A DNA stretch of 64,000 nucleotides from positions 62,001-126,000 of the forward strand of contig CANRGH010000003.1 in NCBI GenBank assembly GCA_947630135.1, in the 5' to 3' direction. Positions within the stretch are counted from its first letter, which is position 1. Each line of letters starts with the position of its first letter. Origin of the DNA: an uncultured Monoglobus sp. GTDB lineage: Bacteria > Bacillota > Clostridia > Monoglobales > Monoglobaceae. Made by a program: the position numbers and the translations under genes. Below the pieces are notes generated by a model. That model worked only from the letters and a program-made list of their open reading frames with translations. It did no database searches and had not been told where the DNA came from. Below, piece after piece: positions 3 to 56,831 of the stretch.

Positions 3-2162
<2,160 letters not shown>

Positions 2163-22148: not shown

Positions 22149-22186
22149 AACAAATCACCGCGGCACATCAACCGCGGTGATTTGTT
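22149..22186. terminator. bidirectional terminator
   Basis: A perfect 15-bp stem, AACAAATCACCGCGG at 22149-22163 with CCGCGGTGATTTGTT at 22172-22186. It serves the convergent genes on both sides and overlaps the stop of the relE-like gene. Confidence 0.9.
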
Positions 22187-22439
22187 AATATTTTTTATAA
22201 ATTTGACCGCGGTTTCCTGCGTCGATAACGCAAACAATATATTTGCCGTTATCAACGATGAATATAATACGATAATCTCCGACACGCAGTCTGAAATAAC
22301 CTTCTCTGTCGGTTATTGCGGCAATGTCTCCGTTATCCGGAAGTTTGTAAATTGCCCTTAGCAGCCGCTCTTGTTGATTACGCGGCTGTTTCTTTATGAA
22401 TTTCAAAGGTTTTTTCTCGATCACAACATGATATTTCAT
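22185..22439 (-). CDS. RelE/ParE-superfamily toxin
   Basis: 84 residues. The family fold is recognisable: an N-terminal amphipathic helix (VVIEKKPLKFIKKQPRNQQERLL is the start region), then GYFRLRVGDYRIIFIVDNGKYIVCVIDAG, where RLRVGDYRIIF is the hallmark strand. Toxins of this type usually cleave mRNA at the ribosome. It overlaps its antitoxin gene by four bases. Target not known here. Confidence 0.88.
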   Translation of the reverse strand: MKYHVVIEKKPLKFIKKQPRNQQERLLRAIYKLPDNGDIAAITDREGYFRLRVGDYRIIFIVDNGKYIVCVIDAGNRGQIYKKY

Positions 22440-22657
22440 AAGGCGATATCCAATTCCTTTGCCAAATCTTCAATCGAAACTGTCTCGTGTTTGTCGGGAC
22501 TTTTGTCGTTTAAATATTCATCAACCAATTTGCGGCAATAAATGTCGTCCTCAATATCATCATCATAGGTAACGCCTTTAAGAAATGTTATAATATATGC
22601 CAGTTTATACTCGGGAAGATTATTTATCAAATCAATTGCTATTTCTCTGTTTGACAT
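22436..22657 (-). CDS. antitoxin partner of the RelE-like toxin
   Basis: 73 residues, acidic (DDDIEDDIYC). The start MSNREIAIDLINNLPEYKLAYIITFLKG is seen in clostridial antitoxins paired with RelE toxins. Its gene overlaps the toxin start by four bases, a typical coupled toxin-antitoxin order (antitoxin first). A palindrome covers the promoter. Called from context and short similarity. Confidence 0.75.
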   Translation of the reverse strand: MSNREIAIDLINNLPEYKLAYIITFLKGVTYDDDIEDDIYCRKLVDEYLNDKSPDKHETVSIEDLAKELDIAL

Positions 22658-22748: not shown

Positions 22749-22777
22749 TTGCATTTTTGATAGTGTTATGCTATAAT
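22749..22777 (+). promoter_or_regulatory. promoter of candidate RNA copy 1
   Basis: TTGCAT at 22749-22754 and TATAAT at 22772-22777, 17-bp spacer. The first base of the rod hairpin (22784) is seven bases after the -10, the expected +1. Confidence 0.65.
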
Positions 22778-22783
22778 ATTCCT

Positions 22784-22951
22784 GCAACATAATTTCACAA
22801 TTTAATAGAACGGATAACGTGTGCTATTTTTATCATTGATAAAAATGCACCCTCTGTTTACGCGTTGTCTGTTCTTGACATTGTTGTGAAATTGTGTTGC
22901 AGCAATTGGGGTTTGTGCATTTTTTTGCGCGGCTCCGGCTGCGCATTTTTT
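22784..22951 (+). ncRNA. candidate structured RNA, copy 1 (about 168 nt)
   Basis: No gene is seen between 22658 and 23017 apart from this element. A 117-nt rod: 17-bp closing stem (22784-22800 with 22884-22900), internal loop, 15-bp stem (22807-22821 with 22861-22875), an 11-nt bulge on the 3' side (22850-22860) and a 12-bp apical stem with one bulged base (22822-22849). All four non-Watson-Crick positions in the two lower stems are G-U pairs in plus-strand RNA, so the plus strand is the RNA. After the rod come AGCAAUUGGGGU and an 8-bp terminator with six T's. A homologous copy lies at 35008-35178 on the minus strand. Not translated; function unknown. Confidence 0.75.
22926..22951 (+). terminator. 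terminator of candidate RNA copy 1
   Basis: TGCGCGGC / GCTGCGCA, an 8-bp stem with one G-U pair, loop TCCG, then TTTTTT. It separates the RNA from the hicAB promoter. Confidence 0.85.
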
Positions 22952-22971: not shown

Positions 22972-23003
22972 TTGACATATGATACTAAATATGATACTAT
23001 AAT
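22972..23003 (+). promoter_or_regulatory. hicAB promoter with repeated operator
   Basis: TTGACA at 22972-22977, with TACTAT at 22995-23000 (17-bp spacer) or TATAAT at 22998-23003. An 11-bp direct repeat ATATGATACTA at 22977-22987 and 22989-22999, spaced 12 bp, fills the spacer and is a likely binding site for the HicB RHH domain. Confidence 0.75.
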
Positions 23004-23017
23004 TTTGAGGTGATATT

Positions 23018-23245
23018 GTGTCTCAGATCGAAAAATTGATTAATAAGATGAAAGACAGGCCAAACGGTATCAGACCCGAGGAAGCGCAGCGCGTTTTAAA
23101 CGCGTTCGGATATAGGCTTGACAGACAAAAAGGCCCTCATATGCATTTTATTAACGATGATGGAGATGTTGTCACTATTCCCGAAAGAACCCCTCTCAAG
23201 GCGGTATATGTTAAGGATATTTTAATCAGAATTTCAAAGCAGTAA
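23018..23245 (+). CDS. hicA: HicA-family toxin, GTG start
   Basis: 75 residues starting at GTG with GAGGTG upstream. The double-stranded-RNA-binding-like HicA fold is marked by the GPHMHFIND strand containing the catalytic His, followed by VTIPERTPLKAVYVKDIL. HicA toxins are mRNA interferases. Toxin-first order with hicB 14 bases later is the usual hicAB layout. The 5' UTR is only about ten bases long. Confidence 0.9.
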   Translation: MSQIEKLINKMKDRPNGIRPEEAQRVLNAFGYRLDRQKGPHMHFINDDGDVVTIPERTPLKAVYVKDILIRISKQ

Positions 23246-23259
23246 CGGAGGTAAAGCAT

Positions 23260-23604
23260 ATGACTGTTAAAGAATACATGAAGCTGCCTTATAATTTTAT
23301 TATCCAAAAAGTCAATGATGAGAGTGGCGAGTATTTTTACGCGCGCGTAATGGAGCTTGACGGCTGTCAGAGCGACGGTGAAACGTTTGATGAGGCGTAT
23401 CAAAATATTTTGGATGCAATGGAAGGATATATTGAGGCAAAGCTTGAAAACGGATTTGATGTGCCGCTGCCGGGCAGCGAGGATCGTTACAGCGGCAAAT
23501 TTGTTGTCAGAGTCCCGAAATCGCTTCATCGCTCACTTGCCGCGGCCGCGGAGAGAGAAGGCGTCTCGCTCAATCAATATGCGCTGTATAAACTCAGCAA
23601 ATAA
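23260..23604 (+). CDS. hicB: HicB-family antitoxin
   Basis: 114 residues. A degraded RNase-H-like N-terminal domain (YFYARVMELDGCQSDGETFDEAYQNILDAMEGYI) binds HicA, and a C-terminal ribbon-helix-helix segment (FVVRVPKSLHRSLAAAAEREGVSLNQYA) binds DNA. SD CGGAGGT. It should repress the direct-repeat promoter upstream. A second, orphan HicB lies at 56230-56565. Confidence 0.9.
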   Translation: MTVKEYMKLPYNFIIQKVNDESGEYFYARVMELDGCQSDGETFDEAYQNILDAMEGYIEAKLENGFDVPLPGSEDRYSGKFVVRVPKSLHRSLAAAAEREGVSLNQYALYKLSK

Positions 23605-32735: not shown

Positions 32736-33290
32736 CGTAGGGACTAGAGAATAGGGACTGGGAACTAGGGAGGGACGTCGAGGGCGCCGTCCCCTACGAA
32801 CATAGTGATTAGTAATTAGTGAATAGCGATTAGAGCGGGCGGCAGATTGCCGCCCCTACAGGTTTCATCACACCGTAGGGGCGGATATTATCCGCCCGTT
32901 TTACCCCCTAAAATACTGTAGGGCCGGATGCCCACATCCGGCCGGCGGCACGGTCCCGTTTGCCTCCCCCTCGGGGGAGGTGGATTTCCGCCAACGGCGG
33001 AAAGACGGAGAGGGGTACTTGTGTGGGGTTCCCCTCTCAGTCTGCGGACAAGCCGCAGCCAGCTTCCCCCAAGGGGAGCCAACGTAGCGAATAGGGCTCC
33101 CACAAAGCGCCAACGAAGTGCACTTTGCGGGAAAAGGAACAATCGCAGAGCGATAAGAAAAAATCGCCTGCGATTTTTTTGATAAGCGGCGCGCATTGTG
33201 ACGCAGCTATTAGAATAATAGTATATAAAACACCGTAGGGGCGGACGACCTCGGCCGCCCGCCCTTTGAATTTAATTGGGAAGAATTAAT
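32736..33290. repeat. mixed intergenic hairpin repeats
   Basis: A 560-bp stretch with no gene. In order: a GGGACGTCGAGGGCGCCGTCCC-type hairpin, the AT-rich linker in reverse (TAGTGATTAGTAATTAGTGAAT), GGGCGGCAGATTGCCGCCC, GGGCGGATATTATCCGCCC and the CCGGATG/CATCCGG element. A second family follows (CCTCCCCCTCGGGGGAGG, TTCCGCC/GGCGGAA, then CTCAGTCTGCGGACAAGCCG). A final GTAGGGGCGG...CCGCCC unit ends at about 33266. These are the modules seen near the RAYT gene. Confidence 0.85.
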
Positions 33291-33296
33291 TATTTT

Positions 33297-34988
33297 TTAC
33301 AAACTCATTTCGGCGGTTTCGGCCAGCGGCTTTATGTTGTCCGTATTACTCCACAGCATTACTTTTATATTCGCGTTTTGCAGATTAGCACTAAAAAACG
33401 TTACATCGCCGAAGTTATAATATTTCTGCATTTCGATCAGTGCGCCGTTTTTGTTGTACACCGCCAAAATAACCTGCGCATCGGTATCATCGCAATTGTT
33501 TACTTTAGCCGTCACAAATCCATTTCGAACTTCGATGATCTCAACCGAAGGCGTGTTTGGGTCGGCTGTAGGCTTTGTCGTCGGTGTGGGAGCAGGCTTT
33601 TGAGTAGGCGTCGGTTTTGGCGTGGGCGTTGCCCCGCCCGGCATTGTTGAATTATAGTGGATCGCGGCGTTCAACAAGGAATCATTATTTGAATTAATTT
33701 CAATCGCCTGCCATTCGGATTTATTTCCGCCATAATATATATCGCTAAGACTATCACAATTATAAAATGCAAATCTATCAACGGATATAACACTATTTGG
33801 TATTTCTATACATTTCAGATTGCGGCAGCCTTGGAATGCGCTATATTGTATAGAAGTTACACCGTGAGGAATAGTTACGCTGAGCAAATTGCTACATTCA
33901 TTAAATGCGTAATCTTTTATAAACGCAACACTGTTGGGAATCATGTAATTTCTTTTTGTATTAGCTGCGGGATATTTAATTAAGGCGGTCATATTTTTAT
34001 CGAACAAAACGCCGCTTTCCGAGCGAAAATGTTGATTTTTTTCCGATACATATATATCCGTTAAGTTATAACAGAAATCAAACGCACTGCTTCCAATAGA
34101 AATAACGCTTGCGGGAATGGTTAATGTTTTTATTTCATAGCATTTTAGTGCAATATCAGCTATACATGTGGTGCCTTCTTTTATTATACATTCCGTTATA
34201 TCTAAATCAGTATCAATTAAATAGCTGCCTATATATAAAATTCCGTTAATCCAGTTATTTTTATTATTATAATATTCAGTATTATAAAATGCATGAAAGC
34301 TAATGGATGTGACCCCGCTGCCTATTGTTATATTTTTTAAGGCGCTGCAATCAAGAAATGCTTCGCTGCAAATAGATTCAACACTATCGGGGATTTCTAT
34401 TTTTGCAAGCGATTTGCAATTTACAAACGCTCTCTCTCCGATAATTTTAACACTGCTGCCAACAGTTACATCCGTTAGCTTATTGCAAGAATAAAATGCC
34501 GCGGTTCCAATAGAAGTAACGCCATTACCTATTTTTACGCTTTGTAATTTTGTACACATCATGAACGCATTACTGTCTATTAAAGTAACACTGTCCGGAA
34601 TGTTAATATTCGTAAGACCGTAACAATAGCTAAATGCGCCACTTTCGATAGATTTAATACTGTTTGGCAAAGAAACATTCGTTAGCGTGTCAGACCAGCT
34701 TTCAAATGCATTAACACCAACATCTGTTACACCATATTCAATTACGACTGACGAAATAGAGCGTCGTACATCTCTCCATGGTATTTCACTGTCCTCTGAA
34801 GTTATTCCCATACTGCCCACGCCGCTGATTGTCAGAACTCCTTTATCATCGAGTGTCCAAGTCAAATTATTGCCATTTGCGCCAAAAGTGCCGTTATTTA
34901 CTATTGTCGCGGCGGTCACGGGCATAAACGTCAGCAGCGCGCAAATCATTATTGTCATTACCAGTCCTAAACTTAAAACTCTTTTCAT
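33297..34988 (-). CDS. secreted BspA-like leucine-rich-repeat protein
   Basis: 563 residues from the ATG at 34988 (CAGGAGGTAC upstream); a longer frame runs through the upstream RNA element and is not used. Signal peptide 1 to about 25. About 14 LRR_5 repeats of the BspA type follow (pattern such as LTNVSLPNSIKSIESGAFSY), to about residue 455. A Thr/Pro linker (TPTPKPTPTQKPAPTP) leads to a C-terminal beta module ending KPLAETAEMSL. Such proteins bind surfaces or host proteins; function here is inferred. Base composition is AT-richer than the neighbours. Confidence 0.88.
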   Translation of the reverse strand: MKRVLSLGLVMTIMICALLTFMPVTAATIVNNGTFGANGNNLTWTLDDKGVLTISGVGSMGITSEDSEIPWRDVRRSISSVVIEYGVTDVGVNAFESWSDTLTNVSLPNSIKSIESGAFSYCYGLTNINIPDSVTLIDSNAFMMCTKLQSVKIGNGVTSIGTAAFYSCNKLTDVTVGSSVKIIGERAFVNCKSLAKIEIPDSVESICSEAFLDCSALKNITIGSGVTSISFHAFYNTEYYNNKNNWINGILYIGSYLIDTDLDITECIIKEGTTCIADIALKCYEIKTLTIPASVISIGSSAFDFCYNLTDIYVSEKNQHFRSESGVLFDKNMTALIKYPAANTKRNYMIPNSVAFIKDYAFNECSNLLSVTIPHGVTSIQYSAFQGCRNLKCIEIPNSVISVDRFAFYNCDSLSDIYYGGNKSEWQAIEINSNNDSLLNAAIHYNSTMPGGATPTPKPTPTQKPAPTPTTKPTADPNTPSVEIIEVRNGFVTAKVNNCDDTDAQVILAVYNKNGALIEMQKYYNFGDVTFFSANLQNANIKVMLWSNTDNIKPLAETAEMSL

Positions 34989-35007: not shown

Positions 35008-35178
35008 AATAAAAAGTGTGTGGTCTCAATCGGAACCACACACGAAAAATGTTTAGCTCCGATTGCTGCCACGCAAATTATTTCACTCTTTAACAAGGAT
35101 GCGAAAATAGAGCGTACATTTTTACACAATGAAAAATGCACCCTTAATATAAAGAGTAAAATATTTAATTTACGTGGC
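35008..35178 (-). ncRNA. candidate structured RNA, copy 2 (about 171 nt)
   Basis: Homologue of the RNA at 22784-22951, on the other strand. A 111-nt rod: closing stem 35178-35166 with 35080-35068 (13 bp), a four-base bulge, an 11-bp stem (35161-35151 with 35091-35081), and an apical 9-bp stem TGCATTTTT / AAAAATGTA around 35140-35115. Conserved with copy 1 are the apical hairpin with CAUUG in its loop, the 3' bulge C-S-CUCURUUUWCGC, the linker AGCAAUCGGAGCU and the terminator. The G-U pairs fit minus-strand RNA only. It lies immediately upstream of the LRR gene, so it is either a separate RNA or a leader. Confidence 0.75.
35016..35043 (-). terminator. terminator at the end of RNA copy 2
   Basis: GTGTGTGGT / ACCACACAC, a perfect 9-bp stem with a 10-nt loop, followed on the minus strand by TTTTTATTTTT. 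It lies about 11 bases before the SD of the LRR gene, so read-through would be needed to express that gene from this promoter. Confidence 0.85.
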
Positions 35179-35185
35179 AAAATAC

Positions 35186-35214
35186 ATTCTATCATATTAT
35201 TTCCAAAAGGTCAA
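35186..35214 (-). promoter_or_regulatory. promoter of RNA copy 2
   Basis: On the minus strand, TTGACC (35214-35209) and TAGAAT (35191-35186), 17-bp spacer. The rod begins seven to eight bases after the -10, as in copy 1. Confidence 0.75.
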
Positions 35215-49926: not shown

Positions 49927-51849
49927 ATGAAATACTTGAAGAGTTTGGCCGTCTTTGTTGCGGTATGCATGATGATCTCGGTGATACCGGTCATTAGTCA
50001 CGCGGCAGGCGGCGCGGGCGCGGTTATTGCCGCTGACGGCGAAACCGAAGCGACGCCGCTCCCCGAGACAACGGAAGATCCCGACGCGACAGCGGAGCCC
50101 GAGGCGACTCCCGAGATCACGGCGGAGCCCGATATAACGCCGGATCCCGACGCCACGGCTGAGCCGGACGCGACGGCTGATCCCGACGCGACAGCCGACC
50201 CCGATGCCACGGTTGACCCGAACGCAACGGCAGCTCCCGACGCGACTGCGGACCCGAACGCTACGGCAGGCCCGAGCGCGACCCCCGGTCCCTCGACATC
50301 TCCGTCGGCGCAGTATAAGATCACCGTTAACCCGACCGAGAAATCGACCATCACTGCGTCGATAAACTCGCAGCAGGTTACTTCGGCGAACTCCAACGCG
50401 AGAGTCACGATAACCGGTAAGGCGGAGCGCGGCAATACTTACAGCAGCGTATATTATGAGAATTCGGCGAAGGAGAGAACAAATATAATAACTTCTCCCA
50501 CCGAGCAGTTTGAGCAGACGATCACAATGCCTACTTCTGACATTGTGATATACGCCGAGACCGCGGTAATGACTCCGCAGCAGTTATACACCAGCGCGTC
50601 GCGCCAGTACAGCACCGTCAACACGAACATCAGCACATATAAGACGCGCTATATAAACAACAGCGCGAATTATAACGCTTCCGACATCAGAGCGATGAAC
50701 AGCTACATAAAAGAGGCCGAGGAACTGCTTCCCTCGCTCAGGGAGTCATACACGAACCTCAATTCTCTGATCAGAGACGACTCTGTCACCGAGGTCGCTG
50801 TCAGCGATGTTATATACATGCAGAAAGAAATGGACAGAGTCACCGACGAGATGGATAAGCTCGCGAAGCAGATGGGCGGAGATTCCGACACCTACAATCT
50901 TGACGTAAGCATTACGACAAGAGGCGGAAGAGTTACAATATCCGGCGCGGTAACGGGCACGATCGACGCGTACAGTACGCCAAATTCGGAGCTGTACACC
51001 AATGTTCCCGCCGACAACGCGCTCACATTCAGAATTGCAAACCAGACCGGCTACACGCTGAACACTTTCAGAATTAACGGCAGAAATATGACGGTGAACG
51101 GCAACTCGTTTATGATCAGCTCGACAAATATCAGAAATTATATTTCAAACGGCGTTATGGAAGTGACGATAAGCTTCGCCCAGAACTACGGCGGAGGTAC
51201 GACATACGGCGGAGGCACAACATACGGCGGTGGAACGAGCTACAGCAATAACAACAATAATATTCTCAACAGCGGAGGCGCTGCCGCGACTCCGGTGCCG
51301 AATGCGGCAGCCGGAAGCGGCGTGTTCAACGATTTGGCCGGAGTAGAGTGGGCGGTTCCCTCAATCACTGCGCTCTACAGCATGGGCATAATCAACGGCA
51401 TGGGCGACGGCAGGTTTGAGCCGCAGAGCAACGTCACCCGCGAGCAGTTTGCGAAGATGATCGTGGGCGTTATGGGCTACACGGTTGACCAGAACGCTAC
51501 AACAAGCTTCAGTGACGCCAACGGCGACTGGTACACGCCCTACATCGCGGCGGCTGTCCAGAACGGCATAATCAACGGCCGTGACGACGGAACCTTCGGC
51601 GTGGGCGATAACATCACCCGTCAGGACATCGCGGTCATCATCTACAGAACACAGGGCTCGCCCGGAGTTGAGATCCATGAGTTCCCCGATTCCGCGAGCA
51701 TCAGCGACTACGCGGTCGAGGCGGTTTCGTACCTCTTCGCGTGTCAGATCGCGACAGGTGACGATCAGGGCAACTTCAACCCGATCAATCCCGCGACAAG
51801 AGCCGAGGCTTCAAAGATGCTTTACGGACTCTACACGCTGACTCATTAA
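49927..51849 (+). CDS. secreted SLH-domain wall protein with Asp-Ala-Thr repeat tract
   Basis: 640 residues from the second ATG (49927), because the first (49921) touches the GGAGGA site. A signal peptide (to about 25) is followed by a low-complexity tract of xPxATA units (about 40-120, such as DATADPDATADPNATA). Two beta-rich regions flank a helical, coiled-coil-like region (about 215-320). A YGGGTTYGGGT tract (about 418-440) precedes three C-terminal SLH repeats (about 460-640: SITALYSMGIINGMGDGRF and two more). Probably a structural surface protein held by secondary wall polymer. Function otherwise unknown. Confidence 0.88.
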   Translation: MKYLKSLAVFVAVCMMISVIPVISHAAGGAGAVIAADGETEATPLPETTEDPDATAEPEATPEITAEPDITPDPDATAEPDATADPDATADPDATVDPNATAAPDATADPNATAGPSATPGPSTSPSAQYKITVNPTEKSTITASINSQQVTSANSNARVTITGKAERGNTYSSVYYENSAKERTNIITSPTEQFEQTITMPTSDIVIYAETAVMTPQQLYTSASRQYSTVNTNISTYKTRYINNSANYNASDIRAMNSYIKEAEELLPSLRESYTNLNSLIRDDSVTEVAVSDVIYMQKEMDRVTDEMDKLAKQMGGDSDTYNLDVSITTRGGRVTISGAVTGTIDAYSTPNSELYTNVPADNALTFRIANQTGYTLNTFRINGRNMTVNGNSFMISSTNIRNYISNGVMEVTISFAQNYGGGTTYGGGTTYGGGTSYSNNNNNILNSGGAAATPVPNAAAGSGVFNDLAGVEWAVPSITALYSMGIINGMGDGRFEPQSNVTREQFAKMIVGVMGYTVDQNATTSFSDANGDWYTPYIAAAVQNGIINGRDDGTFGVGDNITRQDIAVIIYRTQGSPGVEIHEFPDSASISDYAVEAVSYLFACQIATGDDQGNFNPINPATRAEASKMLYGLYTLTH

Positions 51850-53859: not shown

Positions 53860-54690
53860 GGCTCCCATTGCTGATTATCCCCAAAGGGAGGTAAAAAAAC
53901 GCCTCCCTCTTTGAGGGAGGGGGACCGCAGCCAGAGCCGCGGAGCGGGTGCGGGGCACAACCGTATTCCGTTTTCACGGATAAACGAGACCACAAATTAT
54001 TAACGTTTGCGAACATGTCGCGATAGCGGTGGAAGGAGTAAGCACGTCGATCTCCCTCAGTCTGCGGACAAGCCGCAGACAGCTCCCTCCCGGAGGGAGC
54101 CGTAAAGAATTAGCGTCCTAATCGCTATTCGCTAATCACTACGTTGGTGGATATTATCCGCCCGGCGGGACGTCGAGGGCGCCGTCCCCTACAACCAAAG
54201 TACGCAAAAAGCCGTAGGGGCGGACGACCCGGCCGCCCGTCCGGCTCCCCTTCCTTTAGGAGGGGGAGCTGTCGCCAAAGGCGACTGAGAGGGAGGCCTA
54301 TTCGCTATTCTCTAATCACTAATCACTACGTTGGCCCCTCTCCGTCTTTCCGCCTTACGGCGGAAATCCACCTCTAAGGAAGCGCTTGGTCAAAATCGCA
54401 AGCGATTTTGAAAGGTCGCTTTGAACCCGCACGCTCCGCGCGCTGATTATCCCCGAGGGAGAGGCAAAATGGGCGGCAAATGCCGTCGGCCGGATGTGGG
54501 CATCCGGCCCTACGACGAATGGCGAGGCATATCGGGCGGATAATATCCGCCCCTACGGTGTGATGAAATTCGCAGGGGCGGCAAATGCCGTCGGCCGGAT
54601 GTGGGCATCCGGCCCTACGACGAATGGCGAGGCATATCGGGCGGATAATATCCACCCCTACGGTGTGATGAAATTCGCAGGGATCCCACT
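53860..54690. repeat. intergenic hairpin repeats including a 105-bp tandem duplication
   Basis: About 830 bp without a gene. The first half has GGGAG-type hairpins (CCTCCCTC-ttt-GAGGGAGG at about 53900, then CAGTCTGCGGACAAGCCGCAG near 54060) and the ACTAATCACTACGTTGG linker. GGGACGTCGAGGGCGCCGTCCC and GTAGGGGCGG...CCGCCC units follow. A unit with GGGCGGCAAATGCCG, CCGGATG/CATCCGG and GGGCGGATAATATCC is duplicated head to tail (54471-54575 and 54576-54680). Same families as at 2.2, 32.8 and 56.6 kb. Confidence 0.88.
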
Positions 54691-56574: not shown

Positions 56575-56775
56575 ATATCGGGCGGATAATATCCGCCCGA
56601 CGGGACGTCGAGGGCGCCGTCCCCTACAACCAAAGTACGCAAAAGGTCGTAGGGGCGGACGACCCCGGCCGCCCGTTTGGCTCCCCTTGGGGGAGCTGTC
56701 GCCGAAGGCGACTGAGGGGGGAGTTCTAATCGCTATTTACTAATCGCTAATCACTACGTTGGCGGAGTGTATCCG
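56575..56775. repeat. intergenic hairpin repeats
   Basis: GGGCGGATAATATCCGCCC, GGGACGTCGAGGGCGCCGTCCC, a GTAGGGGCGG...CCGCCC unit, GGCTCCCCTTGGGGGAGC with GTCGCCGAAGGCGAC, and the AT-rich linker, in that order. No gene. The order matches part of the 54.2-kb cluster. Confidence 0.88.
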
Positions 56776-56778
56776 CCC

Positions 56779-56831
56779 TTTTTGACGCGAAAAATTGATC
56801 CGGCATTTTTGACGCGAAAAATTGATCCGGC
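56779..56831. repeat. 27-bp tandem direct repeat before rlmB
   Basis: A unit of 27 bp (TTTTTGACGCGAAAAATTGA plus TCCGGCA) occurs at 56779-56805 and again at 56806-56831, exact apart from the last base. It ends five bases before the -35 box of rlmB. Confidence 0.9.

Follow-up and report, generated by a model that had tools for sequence, protein, structure and literature searches.

The window analysed here, a 64,000-nt stretch of DNA from an uncultured Monoglobus sp., contains between positions 22784 and 22951 a segment that can be folded into two long stems, and the question is whether these stems were selected as RNA or belong to a DNA palindrome such as the end of a MITE. A sequence-only reading had proposed an RNA transcribed from the plus strand, on the grounds that every wobble position in the stems is compatible with that strand alone. 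We found both stems where that reading had placed them: stem 1 (P1) comprises 17 bp (22784-22800/22884-22900) and stem 2 comprises 15 bp (22807-22821/22861-22875). The four non-Watson-Crick positions, U22790-G22894, G22812-U22870, U22815-G22867 and U22820-G22862, were confirmed pair by pair to be G-U in plus-strand RNA and A-C on the opposite strand; an 18th pair of stem 1, U22801-G22883, is also a wobble. When compared with dinucleotide shuffles, the plus strand was clearly more stable (-73.7 kcal/mol, z -9.6, with 0 of 200 shuffles as stable) than the minus strand (-44.4 kcal/mol, z -3.9), and the promoter and the U-tailed terminator have the same orientation, as had been noticed from the letters. 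The features assigned to this locus, hereafter copy 1, and to the genes behind it are as follows.

22749-22777, plus strand: putative sigma-70-type promoter of copy 1, with -35 TTGCAT at 22749-22754, a 17-nt spacer and -10 TATAAT at 22772-22777 (sequence and 117-copy logo)
22783-22951, plus strand: copy 1, leader RNA with its start near 22783 (covariance model 125 bits, E 2e-21; fold z as given above)
22784-22801, plus strand: P1 5' strand, partner 22883-22900 (P1 97.8% paired, 12 of 12 pairs covary)
22883-22900, plus strand: P1 3' strand (fold; P1 covariation)
22807-22824, plus strand: P2/P3 5' strand, partners 22861-22875 and 22847-22850 (P3, 6 of 6 pairs covary)
22861-22875, plus strand: P2/P3 3' strand (fold; P3 covariation)
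22826-22846, plus strand: P4 apical hairpin, with a U-rich 5' strand and an A-rich 3' strand (cis energy beats trans)
22841-22854, plus strand: segment A, AAAAATGCACCCTC, in P4 or in a pseudoknot with segment B (91.6% of cells paired)
22908-22924, plus strand: segment B, GGGGTTTGTGCATTTTT, forms either the pseudoknot with A or, with the terminator 5' half, the antiterminator (pairing statistics, cis energies)
22906-22938, plus strand: antiterminator hairpin, alternative to the terminator (in copy 1's lowest-energy fold; 85% paired)
22926-22951, plus strand: intrinsic terminator, stem 22926-22932/22939-22945, U-tail 22946-22951 (stem 98.1% paired)
22972-23003, plus strand: possible separate hicA promoter, TTGACA then TACTAT or TATAAT (sequence only)
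23018-23245, plus strand: hicA toxin gene, 67 nt past the copy 1 terminator (PF07927, E 6.5e-8)
23260-23604, plus strand: hicB antitoxin gene (PF05534, E 1.6e-15)

By itself, the finding of four G-U pairs out of four in copy 1 is weak (p about 0.06, or 1/16), and we therefore sought relatives. Compared with copy 1, its five orthologues in four related genomes have changes at several stem positions with pairing kept, for example from G-U to A-U at 22812/22870 and from A-U to G-U at 22800/22884; homologues that failed to preserve pairing would, according to the sequence-only reading, have refuted it. BLAST followed by a covariance model derived from 20 copies located about 26 copies in the window's genome. 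The E-values of this home-made model are rough, and its top matches score well over 100 bits. Matches were present in 40 of 60 relatives, with a maximum of 36 copies in one genome, and in 72 of 291 sampled Clostridia genomes from many families, while no other genome in a 348-genome sample of the phylum gave a match. These counts are lower bounds, as the filters in the large genome scans were stricter and few candidates were taken from each genome. Nearly all named matches were metagenome-assembled genomes of gut and rumen Clostridia, and the genomes are mostly drafts.

The strand was then read from the family as a whole. An alignment of 118 copies (A2) was fitted to the P1, P3 and terminator helices and is hence biased towards them; in it these helices reach 96% pairing, and double-changed cells number 506, compared with 110 in shuffles, with covariation in 25 of the 26 modelled pairs and double changes in 7 of the 8 pairs of the terminator stem. 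Non-Watson-Crick cells were G-U rather than A-C in P1 (84 vs 3), P3 (128 vs 14) and the terminator stem (118 vs 3), and the sense strand gave the better fold in 114 of 117 copies (p about 1e-20). P4 showed little covariation because its A and U tracts are nearly invariant, and its covariation was set aside as uninformative. Judged by these alignment comparisons, the evidence for selection on plus-strand RNA is decisive at the family level and settles the question of the strand. A MITE or another DNA palindrome with terminal inverted repeats would fit a dispersed multi-copy element with the inverted ends TGCRACAYAA...TTRTGTYGCA, and unrelated MITE-like repeats do lie nearby. It is refuted as the main explanation, and hardly tenable at all, by the G-U vs A-C asymmetry, by covariation within copies, and by a promoter, a segment B and a terminator that are conserved in register outside the inverted repeat. 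Together with the position of the promoter in 117 copies, the same evidence supports, at the level of comparative inference, both the strand assignment and the reading of a selected RNA stem rather than a palindrome or MITE. The multi-copy family, the control of genes and the switching logic described below lie beyond what that reading had noticed.

A logo of the 45 nt 5' of P1 in 117 copies contained TTGACA at -34 to -29 and TGnTATAAT at -14 to -6. The consensus is TTGACA-N17-TATAAT with P1 at +1, and from the position of this logo, which is evidence from sequence alone, transcription is placed to start at the first bases of P1. Every copy has at its 3' end a G+C-rich hairpin followed by a U tail. 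Inspection by eye, without a systematic scan, revealed no Shine-Dalgarno (SD) sequence or upstream ORF common to the copies such as a leader-peptide attenuator would have, and P1 begins at the transcription start.

Gene starts were called with a script applying a simple SD/ORF rule. An SD and a start codon with an ORF lay 8-110 nt past the terminator in 65 of 115 copies, mostly at 14-31 nt, compared with 4 of 117 in mirrored controls (p 8e-21) and 16 of 111 in shifted controls (p 3e-11). A distance of 14-31 nt leaves no room for a further promoter, and such genes therefore need read-through of the terminator. The gene behind the RNA often encodes a large protein of the cell surface. In the window's own genome, simple ORF calls placed a gene within 110 nt at 18 of 22 loci; three further loci have a surface-protein gene at 256-354 nt, with an inserted repeat visible in two, and several copies form tandem pairs. 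LRR_5 genes, of which the genome has about 18, stand behind the RNA at 10 of the 22 loci (p about 6e-17 assuming 2100 genes). One of these arrangements lies in the window, where 23 nt with a strong SD separate the terminator of copy 2 from the ATG of an LRR gene.

35186-35214, minus strand: copy 2 promoter, -35 TTGACC at 35209-35214, -10 TAGAAT at 35186-35191 (sequence and logo)
35011-35179, minus strand: copy 2 of the RNA family (covariance model 149.6 bits; fold z -7.8)
33297-34988, minus strand: gene for a BspA-type LRR secreted protein, led by copy 2 (PF13306, E 2e-97)

Among 59 downstream proteins scanned, 18 were BspA-type LRR proteins, 5 were MazE/AbrB-like and 4 had a copper-amine-oxidase N-terminal domain. 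SLH, VWA, NPCBM, dockerin and D-alanyl-D-alanine carboxypeptidase domains occurred once each, and the rest include small proteins without a Pfam match. This functional mixture speaks against an attenuator, as does the fact that about 40% of all copies have no recognisable gene directly 3'. Among the gene-less copies are first members of tandem pairs and copies that stand before pseudogene-like remnants or inserted repeats. Antiterminator and terminator energies were no different in copies with and without a gene, and the idea that gene-linked copies have stronger antiterminators was rejected. Since these energies do not differ, the gene-less copies might be decayed or serve some other purpose.

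Several of the small proteins recur. A small Cys-rich protein without a Pfam match (M-I/L-x-D...G-x-E-L-I-P-G-N-x-G-K-D-C-P-G...C-C-x-E-C) stands directly behind the RNA at L042, L138, L140, L141, L182 and L189, across several Clostridia families. Another small protein, beginning M-x-D-Y-K/Q-K-L-Y-x-K-L-F-N..., was found at L026, L157, L164, L173 and L175; the one scanned had no Pfam match. All three homologues of a MazE/AbrB-like zinc-ribbon protein in the window's genome (G000 C39:12427, C12:29897 and C39:41055) lie directly behind a copy of the RNA.

We further explored pairings that had not been included in the covariance model and are hence less biased. Segment A (consensus AAAAAUGCAUGCUC) lies in the P4 region and segment B (consensus GAGCUAUGCAUUUUU) follows P1. 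The A-B pseudoknot was paired in 91.6% of cells, with 70 double changes against 30 +/- 4 in shuffled controls and no more than 35 in slid ones. The antiterminator, formed by B with the 5' half and loop of the terminator, was paired in 85% of cells, with 55 double changes against 30 +/- 4 shuffled. Duplex energies were better in cis than in trans (n=105) for A-B (p 3e-15), B-terminator (p 8e-12) and P4 (p 8e-13), and this advantage was also seen among the copies of the window's genome. Median energies of the terminator (-15.7) and the antiterminator (-15.4) were near equal. Because these helices are mutually exclusive, their arrangement, as predicted from the pairing statistics, is the anatomy of a transcription-attenuating switch.

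We consider it highly likely, in the absence of expression data, that the copies represent an apparently undescribed family of 5'-leader RNAs of about 170 nt, which control their downstream genes by transcription attenuation, with a signal inferred to bias the switch. By comparison of the copies, the transcript begins at P1 from its own sigma-70 promoter and folds into P1, a variable P2, P3 and P4, followed by an intrinsic terminator that in most copies stands just 5' of a gene's ribosome-binding site. Segment B can pair either with A in the P4 region or with the 5' half of the terminator, both pairings being selected in cis. The rest is inferred: when A holds B, the terminator would form and the gene would be off; when A is kept in P4, B would make the antiterminator and the gene would be on. 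A cellular signal, either a small ligand or a protein, sensed by the conserved P3/P4 region would bias this choice. The default state and what tips the balance are matters of inference, and no ligand or regulator was identified. The conserved P3/P4 loop is compatible with riboswitch sensing, and the UCUAUUUUCG loop or the A/U tracts would be candidate ligand-sensing sites, for which there are no binding data. Three tracts, U5 in P4, A5 and U5 in segment B, are almost invariant, more than pairing requires (A100-A102 in 100%, U248-U249 in 100% and U78-U79 in 94-96% of copies). This would fit a U-A-U triple helix, as a hypothesis only, without structure data. We raise as a tentative proposal, with the odds against it, that the family is a new riboswitch class, widespread among gut and rumen Clostridia, in which a triplex sensor formed by the A tract with the U tracts of P4 and segment B would read an unrecognised signal and set expression of the cell-surface proteome (BspA-type LRR adhesins) at more than 20 loci at once.

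Other accounts of the same arrangement have to be weighed. Stand-alone small RNAs acting in trans, with the adjoining genes incidental or only leaked into, were our first guess: each copy has its own promoter and terminator, about 40% have no adjacent gene, and A and B are alike between copies, so that cross-pairing is possible. This guess was abandoned on analysis of the gene context and now seems improbable, as genes adjoin strongly and on one side only at 14-31 nt, the RNA is enriched 5' of LRR genes, pairing is better in cis than in trans, and a maintained antiterminator would be useless in such an RNA. A leader without a sensor, that is, a fixed-level attenuator or insulator travelling with accessory-gene cassettes, is harder to dismiss although we think it unlikely. 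The mixed, accessory-looking downstream genes and the gene replacement at the copy 1 locus agree with it, and the near-equal terminator and antiterminator energies could set a fixed read-through; regulated switching is suggested instead by three helices that exclude one another and are maintained in cis, and by the A5/U5 tracts that are nearly invariant beyond the needs of pairing.

Signal-biased attenuation also has to be set beside known systems. C. difficile has many c-di-GMP riboswitch copies per genome before surface genes, and a variant class I or II c-di-GMP riboswitch controlling surface proteins would share with our family the many copies per genome 5' of such genes. As in the c-di-GMP-I/II riboswitches (e.g. 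of Clostridioides), there are a 5' leader, an exclusive choice between antiterminator and terminator, a pseudoknot, many copies, tandem copies and adhesin and envelope targets. However, no Rfam c-di-GMP model matched these RNAs in sequence or structure, no GGDEF protein was detectable in eight genomes that carry 6-30 copies (some of these drafts are incomplete), and copy number does not increase with GGDEF number. Gene content does not require c-di-GMP, the GGDEF distribution disfavours it as a necessary partner, and this explanation has almost nothing left in its favour. T-box leader RNAs likewise have a long 5' leader, an antiterminator/terminator choice and tandem copies, but no Rfam T-box match was obtained for the family, no T-box antiterminator sequence was recognised, and the genes behind the RNA are not amino-acid or tRNA-synthetase genes. 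In LoaP-dependent systems, too, a structured leader hairpin precedes accessory genes whose expression requires read-through, whereas no LoaP/NusG paralogue was found here: each RNA-bearing genome searched gave one NusG-family match, and the single gene in RNA-rich genomes disfavours LoaP as a necessary partner. The AbrB-like cargo was considered as a required trans factor and rejected, being present in only 13 of 40 genomes and absent from several RNA-rich ones (G014, G019). U-A-U triplex pseudoknots (SAM-II riboswitch, telomerase RNA, MALAT1/PAN ENE) resemble the family in that nearly invariant U5, A5 and U5 tracts lie in a hairpin and pseudoknot, but its triplex is inferred from conservation only.

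The gene that copy 1 itself controls is less clear than for copy 2. Behind the orthologous RNA of G003 and G010 come, after about 18 nt, a small Cys-rich ORF and then hicB; in G004 the RNA runs directly into the end of the following gene. The window lacks the Cys-rich ORF, and hicA and hicB stand behind copy 1 with a possible promoter of their own (22972-23003). As the Cys-rich ORF is missing and hicAB is in its place, copy 1 is best read, from the compared loci, as a leader that seems to have lost its original gene, and which gene it now targets is doubtful; read-through from copy 1 might control hicA, but this is unproven. Because gene content there varies among related genomes, the site looks like a turnover hotspot. 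Two toxin-antitoxin modules flank copy 1, namely a ParE/RelE-like toxin preceded by a small partner gene (22185-22657, minus strand) and hicA-hicB (23018-23604, plus strand).

The family appears to be new as far as database searches can tell, although it belongs to a known kind, that of attenuating leaders, and is probably a riboswitch (for which binding data are lacking). Rfam release 15 gave nothing relevant, either at the gathering threshold on the window or at permissive E-values on RNA-holding loci. We found no paper describing the family in the open-access literature; papers elsewhere could. Searches of viral_contigs and plasmids gave no match, and two unverified 'phage' scaffolds from human stool that carry the RNA have bacterial-looking genes in the same RNA-plus-gene layout; spread by phages or plasmids was rejected on these grounds. 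If the assignment is true, the family would rank among the larger unassigned cis-regulatory RNA classes, as an orphan that reaches 36 copies in a genome, occurs in roughly one in four sampled Clostridia and is absent from Rfam. It would suggest that uncultured Clostridia of the gut and rumen use a common signal to regulate surface adhesins together with many small proteins whose function is unknown. Precise mutational tests can be designed around the three competing helices, and the signal could be searched for directly with a few conserved leaders.

Some further elements were noted along the way. At L007, a Cobalamin riboswitch (RF00174) was detected at 21-165 (plus strand), just over the gathering score, on a contig that also has two tandem copies of the RNA. 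GC-rich dispersed MITE-like repeats (CCGTAGGGGCGGACGACC...CGGCCGCCCG) occur in the window at 2196-2828, 32769-33265, 54111-54682 and 56581-56824, and a similar sequence separates tandem leader RNAs from an LRR gene on contig C13 of the window's genome (G000). Positions 50045-50264 of the window hold an 18-nt tandem repeat array that encodes a degenerate acidic repeat.
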